In this document: piece after piece, positions 16,965 to 24,353 of the stretch
Position numbering within the stretch: position 1 is the stretch's first letter
Layout: every line of letters starts with the position of its first letter
From: Variovorax sp.
GTDB lineage: Bacteria > Pseudomonadota > Gammaproteobacteria > Burkholderiales > Burkholderiaceae_C
Assembly (NCBI GenBank): GCA_025352265.1
Contig: JANXTS010000033.1
Coordinates: forward strand, 1-64,000
DNA length: 64,000 nt
Direction of reading: 5' to 3'
The notes under the pieces: generated by a model
Seen by the model: the letters and a program-made list of their open reading frames with translations, nothing else
What the model was told of the DNA's origin: nothing
Databases searched by the model: none
Position numbers and translations under genes: made by a program

Positions 16965-18086
16965 ATGACCAAAAGCCCTCCTGCCAAGCGTCATCGAAGC
17001 GCTGCGACACCCGCAGCCAGTTCCGCCTCGGCCCAGCTGACCAAGGCGGCGCCAAAGACGGCGCAGCGCCACTACGCCGTCGTCGGCGCCGGCATCGCTG
17101 GCGTGGCGGCTGCACGCACCCTGGTGCAGGCCGGTCACCGCGTCACGGTGTTCGAGCGCGAGTCGCAGGTCGGCGGCCGGATGGCCAGCGACAAGACCCA
17201 GTTCGGCCGCTTCGACACCGGCGCGCAGTACTTCACCGTACGCGACCCACGTTTCGCCGCCGCCATCGAAACCGCGCCCGGCCTGTGCAAACGCTGGAGC
17301 GCCAACGCGGTGCGCGTGCTCGATGCGCATGGGCTCGTGGCCGAAGCCGCTCTGCCCTCGCTGGAGCCGCACTGGGTCGCGCAACCGGGCATGGACGCAT
17401 TGGTCGCGCAATGGGCGGTTCCCCTTGGCAGCAACGTCGTCACGGATACCCACGTCGTGCAGATCGAGCGTGACACCATCGACGGCAAGCGCTGGCAGTT
17501 GCGCACCGCCGGCGTCGACGATTCGGTACATGTGTATTCGGGCTTCGATGCGGTGTTGCTGGCAGTTCCACCTTCGCGCGCACGGCAGTTGCTCGGCGCT
17601 CATTCGCCCACCCTGACGCAGAAGATCGAGAAGGTCCGCATCGCGCCGTGCTGGACCTTGATGATCGCGTTTCCGCAAGCCAACCAGGCCAACATGTCGC
17701 ACCTCGGCCCGCAGTGGAACGCGGCGCGCAGCACGCACCACCGCGTGGCCTGGCTTACGCGCGAATCGTCCAAGCCGGGACGTGAACGTATCGAGCGCTG
17801 GACGCTGCAAGCCAGCGCGCCGTGGTCGCAAGAGCATCTGCGCGACGACAGCGCCCGCATCGAGGCAAAACTGCTTCGCGCGTTCTCCGAGATCACCGGC
17901 ATCCGCGCTGAACCTTCGTTTGCAAAAACGCGCTGCTGGGCCGAAGCGCAGACGCAAGTGCCGGTCGGCAAGTCGCACCTCTGGGATGCGAAAGCCCGCG
18001 TCGGCATCGCCGGTGACTGGTGCATGGGTCATCGGGTCGAAGACGCTTTTCTGTCTGGACTCTCCCTCGCCCTCGCCGCGCTGTGA
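16965..18086 (+). CDS. FAD-dependent amine-oxidase/renalase-like oxidoreductase
   Basis: A 373-residue protein. After a 36-residue basic, Ala/Ser-rich leader comes the dinucleotide-binding motif [15 protein letters not shown] (about 40-54) with the distal [12 protein letters not shown]. These are followed by [15 protein letters not shown], characteristic of the renalase-like branch of FAD oxidoreductases. The C-terminal flavin-binding motif is [20 protein letters not shown]. Substrate unknown. The TGA overlaps the GTG start of gluQ. Confidence 0.85.
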
Positions 18087-21101: not shown

Positions 21102-21183
21102 CCCTCGACCCGACCTGCGCCAGCGGCCGTGGCAGGATGTCCCGTCCCCGCCCCATCCACCTCTTGAGCCCGGAGTACTGCAG

Positions 21184-22287
21184 ATGATCCGCATCTTTCA
21201 CGACACACGCGAGACCGTGATCTCGGACGCACCACTCACCGATGCGCCAGCCACCGACGCTCTGTGGCTCGACGCAACCCAGATCCGCGAAGCCACCGGC
21301 TGGGATTGGAAGCCCCAGGGCTTGTGCCGCCACGACACCTGCATGCCAGTGCCGCGCAGCGCCGATCAGCCGATGGTCGACGGTAGCCGGCTCGATATCG
21401 CCGCCTTCTGGCGCTTCGCCGGCTGGCCGGTCGTGCATGACGAAAGCGGTCGCGTCTGGGTTCTTGGTGAAGGCGCCGCCAATCGCGCCGATGCCCTCAT
21501 CACCCTGCAGGCGCCAGACTTCGAACTGCCAGATCTCGAAGGCCGCATGCATCGTCTGTCGGACCTGCGCGGGCAGCGAGTCTTTCTAAGCACGTGGGCC
21601 TCCTGGTGAGGCTGCAGGTTCGACTTGCCCGTGTGGCAGTCCCTGCATGAAGCCGCCAAGGACCATGGCTTTACCGTGTTGGCGATCGCACTCGACGAGC
21701 CCGAGCCGGCGCGACCTTGGATCGAAGCAGCCGCCCCGACCTTTCCTGCCCTGATCGATCGCGAGCACCGCGTCGCAGAGCTCTACAACCTGGTCAACGT
21801 GCCGCAGGCCGTCTGGATCGACGAAACCGGCCGCATGGTGCGCCCGCCTGAAAGCGCCGGCTCGACCGACGGTTTCAACGAGCGCGATCGAACCACGAAC
21901 ACGCTACCGGCCGCGGTGCTGGAGCGCCGTGCCCGCGCTAAGGCGGCTTACTTCGACGCGGCGCGCGACTGGGCCTTTAACGGCGCGGCCAGCCGCCATG
22001 CCATGAGCCCCGACGAAGTGCTAAAGCGCCTGCAGGTGCCCGATGCCGGCATCGCCGAGGCGCATGCGCGCTTCAAGCTCGGACAGGTGCTGCTGCGCGA
22101 CGGACACGAGGCAGAAGCCAAGGTGCAGTTCGACGCGGCCTCGCAATTGCATCCGGACTCGTGGGCGATCTGGCGGCAGCACGCCGAGCGCGACGCACGG
22201 GGTCTGGCGGCTGGTGTGGACTTCTGGGCACGCCTCGATGCGCGGGCCGACAAGGCGTATTACCCACCGGCCGACATCCGCGACTAA
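21184..22287 (+). CDS. Redoxin/thioredoxin-fold selenoprotein with in-frame UGA (selenocysteine)
   Basis: The frame from the ATG at 21184 (good GGAG site 8 bases upstream) runs 141 codons to a TGA at 21607, then continues in the same frame to the TAA at 22285. The TGA falls inside the active site of a TlpA/AhpC-like redoxin domain: VFLSTWASW-U-GCRFDLPVWQ, where a cysteine is expected. This gives a U-G-C redox motif with U142 and C144. Downstream the fold continues (VLAIALDE, FPALIDREHRVAELYNLVNVPQAVWID), followed by a helical TPR-like tail (AEAHARFKLGQVLLRDG). Predicted length is 367 residues with no signal peptide. A SECIS-like hairpin follows immediately. A nonsense mutation or sequencing error is the alternative, but nothing else in the frame is damaged. 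Confidence 0.82.
21607..21609 (+). other. In-frame UGA, proposed selenocysteine codon 142
   Basis: TGA sits between TGG (W141) and GGC (G143), at the position of the first active-site cysteine in redoxins. Codon 144 is TGC, giving U-x-C. Confidence 0.8.
21613..21647 (+). promoter_or_regulatory. Bacterial SECIS-like hairpin
   Basis: Starting 3 bases after the TGA, TGCAGG (21613-21618) pairs perfectly with CCTGCA (21642-21647). After an unpaired TTC, GACT (21622-21625) pairs with AGTC (21638-21641). T21626 is bulged, GCC (21627-21629) pairs with GGC (21635-21637), and the loop is CGTGT. The bulged U, 3-bp upper helix and GU at loop positions 2-3 reproduce the SelB-binding features known from the E. 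coli fdhF element. Confidence 0.75.
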
Positions 22288-22827: not shown

Positions 22828-23358
22828 ATGGTCACTTCAAAATCTGTCGTCCTTTCAAAATCATCACTTCGCGGAGATGGGTTCGAAGAACTGTTTCTGG
22901 ACGCACAGTTGTGCTTCACCCTTTACGCCACGTCACTCGCCATGACGAAGGTGCACCGGCCGCTTCTCACTCCGATGGGACTGACGTACCCGCAATATGT
23001 CGTGATGCTCGCGCTGTGGCAGCACGGCGAAATGACTGCGGGCGCGCTAGGCGAACAAGTTGCGCTTGATTCCGGGACGCTGGTGCCGGTTGTTCGCAAG
23101 CTGACAACGCTAGGGCTTGTGAAGCGTGCACGCAATCCTGCTGATGACCGCTCCGTCCTGATTTCGTTGACCGCTGCCGGTCGCAAGCAGGCCAACAGCG
23201 CAAAGGCCGTCAAGAACCAAATAGCTTGTGCCACGCAGTTCACACCTGCAGAAATTCAGACTCTCATGCGCAGCCTCAAAAAACTCCGTGCGGCTTTGAC
23301 AGGCAGCGCCGCAACTTTCAGTCTTCCCGTTGTTCGACCCATCACCCGAAAGAAATGA
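22828..23358 (+). CDS. MarR-family regulator, OhrR-like peroxide sensor
   Basis: A 176-residue winged-helix regulator. Near its N-terminus [11 protein letters not shown] contains C29 at the position of the reactive cysteine of OhrR, followed by [20 protein letters not shown], almost a family signature. The DNA-binding part has [31 protein letters not shown]. OhrR senses organic hydroperoxides by oxidation of that cysteine and derepresses detoxification genes. The gene is translationally coupled (ATGA) to an exported hydrolase, and no ohr gene is nearby. The N-terminus is longer than usual, so the true start could be downstream. Confidence 0.85.
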
Positions 23359-24353
23359 AAATCATGTTTTCTTCAAAATTGCCCACCGGCTCAATTCCTT
23401 CGCGACGGAATCTCCTGCTGGGCAGTGCTGCTGCTGTCGCCGCTGTTGCGCTGCCAGTTGGTGCCGCTGCAACCGAAAAGGCTCGTTCGGCAAGTGCAAA
23501 GTCTCATTCCCACGTCGGCGCAAAAAGCTCCGCCAACACGATTACAACCAAAGACGGTACGCAGATTTATTACAAAGACTGGGGCTCGGGCCAGCCGGTT
23601 GTGTTCTCGCATGGATGGCCACTGACAGCAGATGCCTGGGAGCTTCAGATGGTGTATCTGAGCGAGCGTGGCTACCGGACCATCGCCCACGACCGGCGTG
23701 GGCACGGACGCTCCGGCCAGCCCTGGAGCGGCAACGACATGGATACGTATGCCGACGACCTGTCCACCCTGATCGAGAGCTTGGACCTTAAGAACATGAT
23801 CATGGTAGGTCACTCTACGGGCGGCGGTGAAGTTGCCCGCTATATCGGGCGCCACGGCACCAAACGCGTGGCCAAGACAGTGCTGCTCGGCGCTGTGCCG
23901 CCCATCATGCTCAAGACAGACGCAAACCCTGGGGGACTGACGATGGACGTCTTCGACGGCATCCGAGCGGGCGTGCGGGCCGATCGGTCCCAGTTCTTCA
24001 AGGACCTGACGGTTCCGTTCTATGGCGCCAACCGACCCGGTGCCAAGGTATCGCAGGGGCTGAAGGATTCGTTCTGGCTGATGGGAATGCAGGGGTCCTT
24101 GAAGTCCGAACTGGATTGCATCAAGCAATTCTCCGAAACCGACTTCACGGAAGACCTGAAAAAGATCAATGTGCCTACCCTGATCGTGCACGGTGACGAC
24201 GACCAGATCGTGCCGATTGCCGATTCCGCACTGCTGTCAGCCAAGCTGGTCCAAGGATCTGTCTTGAAGGTATACCCCGGTGCGCCCCATGGCCTGGCCA
24301 GTACGCATCAAGACCAATTCAACGGCGATCTTCTCGCCTTCATCAAAGCCTGA
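23355..24353 (+). CDS. Tat-exported alpha/beta hydrolase, non-heme haloperoxidase/arylesterase-like
   Basis: The ATG at 23355 overlaps the regulator's stop; an internal ATG at 23364 is possible. The N-terminus has a twin-arginine signal ([19 protein letters not shown], about residues 16-34). The mature alpha/beta hydrolase contains FSHGWPL (oxyanion region), the nucleophile elbow VGHSTGGGE with S154, the acid in [10 protein letters not shown] and a late histidine in GAPHG. This set is typical of cofactor-free haloperoxidases and arylesterases that can form peracids. A role in hydroperoxide metabolism is inferred from the OhrR-like partner. Confidence 0.87.

Follow-up and report, generated by a model that had tools for sequence, protein, structure and literature searches.

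The DNA analyzed here (the window) is a stretch of 64,000 nucleotides, positions 1 to 64,000 of contig JANXTS010000033.1 from Variovorax sp. (GCA_025352265.1). It carries a frame that runs from an ATG at 21184 to a TAA ending at 22287 and that contains a lone in-frame TGA at 21607–21609 (codon 142). An earlier sequence-only reading had placed this TGA where the nucleophilic cysteine of a redoxin is expected, in an otherwise clean frame; the joined frame indeed holds no second stop, and its 367-residue product has the active-site motif WASW-U-GCR, where U is selenocysteine (Sec). According to the sequence evidence presented below, the mid-gene UGA almost certainly specifies Sec in the active site of a redox enzyme. 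The following features were assigned to the locus:

21172..21175, + strand: GGAG, likely ribosome-binding site, 8 nt 5' of the ATG, judged from the sequence
21184..22287, + strand: predicted selenoprotein gene of 367 codons with UGA as Sec, ending in TAA (supported by the frame and by same-frame homologues)
21184..21501, + strand: N-terminal domain, residues 1–106, with Cys48 and Cys53
21325..21342, + strand: CX4C motif, Cys48 to Cys53
21508..21834, + strand: AhpC-TSA/TlpA-type thioredoxin-fold domain, residues 109–217 (Pfam; structure matches to ResA)
21607..21609, + strand: UGA codon 142, predicted Sec
21613..21615, + strand: Cys144, proposed resolving cysteine of the UGC motif
21625..21639, + strand: proposed bacterial selenocysteine insertion sequence (SECIS) hairpin, stem YUGYC/GGCAG, loop CGUGU
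21910..22242, + strand: C-terminal helical region, residues 243–353, with one weak TPR_14 match (295–335) below the Pfam cut-off

The geometry of the frame was dropped as evidence for a selenoprotein. Nineteen stops in the window are preceded by at least 140 open codons and followed by at least 200, and 11 of these are TGA, including that at 21607; therefore, open flanks alone are not significant. Five of the ten other TGA sites of this kind were translated with X for the stop and compared with Pfam, and in none of them did a domain span the stop; the rest are four minus-strand sites and a gene end at 18084. The signal beyond chance is homology, because TGA occupies the same codon in related loci. 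Bacterial and archaeal genomes were scanned with a family alignment, which gave 301 relatives, and in the best 80 of them the codon aligned with codon 142 is TGA in 75 cases, from several phyla, and TGC or TGT in five. The homologues with Sec or Cys at this position that the sequence-only reading had called for were thus found, and they do not all stop there.

The gene itself is rare. At E 1e-40 it was detected in two of 398 genomes of a phylum sample, our own included; of 79 genomes belonging to the same order as Myxococcus eversor, three carry it, each time with a Cys codon. When 198 genomes from our genus, family and order were searched, our own among them, a close orthologue was found only in our genome and in one other of the same genus (G026), where it is 93% identical and has the TGA; the next match (E 6e-19) shows 40% identity across the redoxin domain. 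The nearest kin of the N-terminal half comes from a Variovorax metagenome-assembled genome (MAG; 91%), and the near relative Pseudorhodoferax has a Cys form with 69% identity. For detailed comparison at the DNA level we used 85 genes, 78 of the Sec type and seven of the Cys type.

If the TGA had arisen by nonsense mutation, or were a Cys codon that was called wrongly, a single base would account for it, Cys codons being one base away from TGA; Cys forms do occur in near relatives such as Pseudorhodoferax, and the window has many stops with open frame on either side. A sequencing error is nevertheless very unlikely, because the TGA is common to the independent same-genus genome and to 75 of the 80 loci. 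A pseudogene is further opposed by the constrained hairpin codons and by the Sec genes of the host (see below), and we regard either version of this explanation as highly improbable.

It should be added that two TGA-type copies (L073 and L099, both placed in G692) were observed in one Reyranella MAG. Another homologue, L096, has a further TAG near codon 99 in an otherwise open frame and is possibly a decayed or miscalled copy.

The domain structure shows that the two sides of the TGA belong together, as the sequence-only reading had maintained. Pfam AhpC-TSA spans the TGA, covering residues 109–217 with 70.3 bits (cut-off 26; E 1.8e-19), and Redoxin matches the same residues with 43.3 bits (cut-off 26.6). 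The best NCBIfam match is NF041054 (WAxxUGC_long, "ResA-like WAxxUGC motif-containing protein"), and each half alone matches it at adjoining profile positions, 8–115 and 117–315. Since AhpC-TSA crosses the TGA and the halves adjoin on the NF041054 profile, both halves form one fold, a thioredoxin fold with a cis-proline loop. The domain in front of it (residues 1–106) gave no Pfam match, and nothing significant was found with Foldseek against the PDB. Three of the 85 genes do not extend over both cysteines of its CX4C motif; of the other 82, 81 have the pair. Cys144 is present in 84 of the 85 genes. The single gene without it, the SAR324 homologue L088 (6001–7110), keeps the UGA, has Ala in place of Cys144 and has lost both N-terminal cysteines, so that Sec is the sole residue left of the UGC and CX4C motifs in this natural variant.

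Public databases store the Sec form of the family as two fragments split at the UGA. With the N-terminal domain as query, 40 proteins were retrieved; their last residues, right before the UGA, are WASW in 38 cases and WAAW in one. In two homologue listings (the best 120 of 1074 and the best 120 of 849 matches), the C-terminal fragments of 200–259 residues start at codon 150 (21631) in 72 of 77 cases and at codon 148 in three. The sequence-only reading had correctly anticipated that gene callers would end the gene at 21609; the restart it expected at TTG 21625 is the rarer one, GTG 21631 being the usual choice. These gene calls are what favors two separate genes, one encoding a 141-residue protein that ends at the TGA and the other starting from GTG 21631 or TTG 21625. 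However, such a split would run through one thioredoxin fold, right at the catalytic residue, and of the 103 listed matches with 300 residues or more, 101 have both halves linked by CGC. Two genes are accordingly a scarcely credible arrangement. Two unusual entries were also seen: P0201 has Trp at the Sec position (WASWWGC), which may come from table-4 translation of TGA, and P0207 reads WASWSEC.

Comparison of the Sec-type genes revealed a candidate recoding signal next to the UGA. It is a hairpin of five base pairs that begins 15 nt 3' of the UGA, with bases 19–23 pairing with bases 29–33 (U of UGA = 1); the five pairs can form in all 78 Sec-type genes. GU is invariant in the loop, which is CGUGU in 76 of the 78, and the RNAalifold consensus of 76 Sec-type sequences retains just the YUGYC/GGCAG hairpin. 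Third-base conservation over 314 columns of the Sec-type genes is highest at codons 152, 148, 150 and 149, the TGA column, and codons 347 and 212. In the Sec-type genes the Leu148 codon is only TTG or CTG (39 and 38 of 77), that of Val150 is GTG in 76 of 78, and Gln152 is always encoded by CAG (78 of 78). GTG is absent at codon 150 from all seven Cys-type genes, but five of the seven are mutually related myxobacteria. The bacterial SECIS is described in PMC1088965 as a stem-loop just after the UGA whose small apical loop contains a G, and the hairpin at 21625–21639 has these features. When our sequence was folded by itself it gave z −2.20 against shuffles, but the structure is longer than the shared hairpin. 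We consider the hairpin to be good comparative evidence for recoding, short of proof.

The sequence-only reading had pointed to selA, selB, selC and selD as the genes on which its proposal depended, and all four were found in the host genome. The tRNA-Sec gene (C31:11015–11106; anticodon tca by ARAGORN) scored 80.4 bits against a cut-off of 47; selB (C31:11200–13089), selA (C31:13316–14677) and selD (on C21) are all above their curated cut-offs. Because weak matches to tRNA-Sec, selB and selD occur in all 14 control genomes, only scores above the cut-off were counted. On this basis tRNA-Sec is present in 55 of 64 TGA-type genomes examined, namely our own, G026, 15 and 46 locus genomes and G432, the last 47 having been searched with stricter filters than G026 and the 15. 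Among the Cys-type genomes it was detected in five of seven (the five myxobacterial ones) and not in the other two; therefore, the Cys form does not depend on the machinery being absent.

Several observations weigh against reading the locus as a selenoprotein gene with a SECIS. The remaining nine of the 64 TGA-type genomes, all titled MAG, gave no tRNA-Sec, and 13 of the 75 TGA loci lie outside this test. The folding energy of the hairpin region is only modestly below that of synonymous reshufflings (mean z −0.89 for the 78 Sec-type genes; −0.26 for six Cys rows, one of which duplicates L052), stem variation is C/U on one side only, and the hairpin sequence is partly fixed by conserved residues. 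No match to Rfam RF00031 was found in the genome, nor in the 14 control genomes, and a permissive Rfam scan of 21500–21800 gave one match (E 8.3) that we take as chance; since Rfam gave no match, the SECIS assignment rests on comparison and not on a curated model. Finally, the NF041054 score is 295.3 bits, below the curated cut-off of 300. The same-genus orthologue scores 289.4, and among eight database homologues (range 269.1 to 337.4) three reach 300 and five do not. Taken with these points, the sequence data indicate that the gene very probably encodes one 367-residue selenoprotein, taken here to be a soluble thiol-disulfide oxidoreductase with Sec142 in a TlpA/ResA-type thioredoxin fold.

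The description of this gene as unrecognised is true of ordinary gene calling but not of the family. The protein shares with NF041054 its domain order, the WAxxUGC motif (here WASWUGC) and the full-length architecture (profile positions 8–315 of 354), and a Myxococcus Cys-form relative bears the NF041054 name in NCBI. Entries of this kind are listed in the literature under the names "Prx-like (UGC-containing)" (Global Ocean Sampling, 2008; PMC2398784; 46 sequences with Sec and 855 with Cys), "UGC-containing Prx-like protein" (2022 review; PMC9312934) and "UGC-containing TlpA disulfide reductase family protein" (2026 review; PMC13188914). Judged from these table entries, our protein has in common with them a pfam00578 or TlpA-type domain, the UGC motif and the occurrence of Sec and Cys forms; no functional characterisation of the family was found in the literature searched. 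The sequence-only reading is thus a correct and well-supported call of a predicted member of a catalogued selenoprotein family. Less described are the N-terminal domain with its near-invariant CX4C and the Sec/Cys switches, at least 11 in the tree.

In a tree with 78 Sec and 99 Cys rows (177 in all), at least 18 Sec/Cys changes are required, 11 of them forced by well-supported branches; with 27 fragments added, which were labelled Sec from their start position and not from DNA, there are 19 changes, again with 11 forced. Both trees are quick ones, made without bootstrap. A reversal from Cys to Sec in our own lineage was considered, as a supported clade of 53 rows in the first tree consists of 50 Cys and three Sec rows. 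It is not claimed, because the first tree omitted the Sec fragments, and with the 27 added the gene sits among fragments.

As to the reaction, the sequence-only reading had suggested a peroxidase or a reductase. The top structure matches by Z are ResA/DsbE-type reductases, which suggests the latter. ResA and TlpA have CxxC; here, as had been noted, U-G-C is shorter, with one residue between Sec142 and Cys144 instead of two. The protein also differs from them by its extra N- and C-terminal regions and by the lack of an export signal at the N-terminus on inspection by eye, and it is probably soluble and cytoplasmic. An enzyme acting chiefly as a peroxidase, peroxiredoxin- or glutathione peroxidase-like, is somewhat unlikely. 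The peroxidatic motif of peroxiredoxins is PxxxTxxC. Three residues before Sec142 stands Ala139 instead of Thr, and Ala is found there in at least 97% of the 85 genes; moreover, the GSHPx match is below its cut-off (19.0 vs 27).

Sequence and prediction provide the frame and its fold, the hairpin, the Sec genes and the conservation of the TGA, and from these we infer the following course for the predicted oxidoreductase. The hairpin 15 nt past the UGA would recruit SelB with Sec-tRNA(Sec), and the UGA would be decoded as Sec, replacing the nucleophilic Cys of the TlpA/ResA-type fold. In the presumed direction, Sec142 would attack the substrate at a disulfide (alternatively at a sulfenic or peroxide group), Cys144 would resolve the intermediate to form a Sec–Cys bond, and a thiol donor would reset the enzyme. 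The N-terminal CX4C pair may relay the electrons of the donor. It can be hypothesized, as a tentative and rather doubtful extension, that this is a two-module selenoenzyme in which the Cys48/Cys53 dithiol would serve as a built-in reductant or relay for the short-ring UGC, so that the selenenylsulfide would be recycled by the protein itself; the joint loss of Cys144 and both N-terminal cysteines in L088 bears on this idea.

Directly 3' of the gene, at 22828–24353, the window carries a MarR-type regulator and an alpha/beta hydrolase (both by Pfam).

Thus, the locus represents a well-supported predicted selenoprotein that ordinary gene calling breaks in two. The 78 Sec-type and seven Cys-type genes with DNA make it possible to test the recoding hairpin against Cys forms, and the conserved CX4C domain at the N-terminus suggests a testable way in which a UxC center may be recycled.
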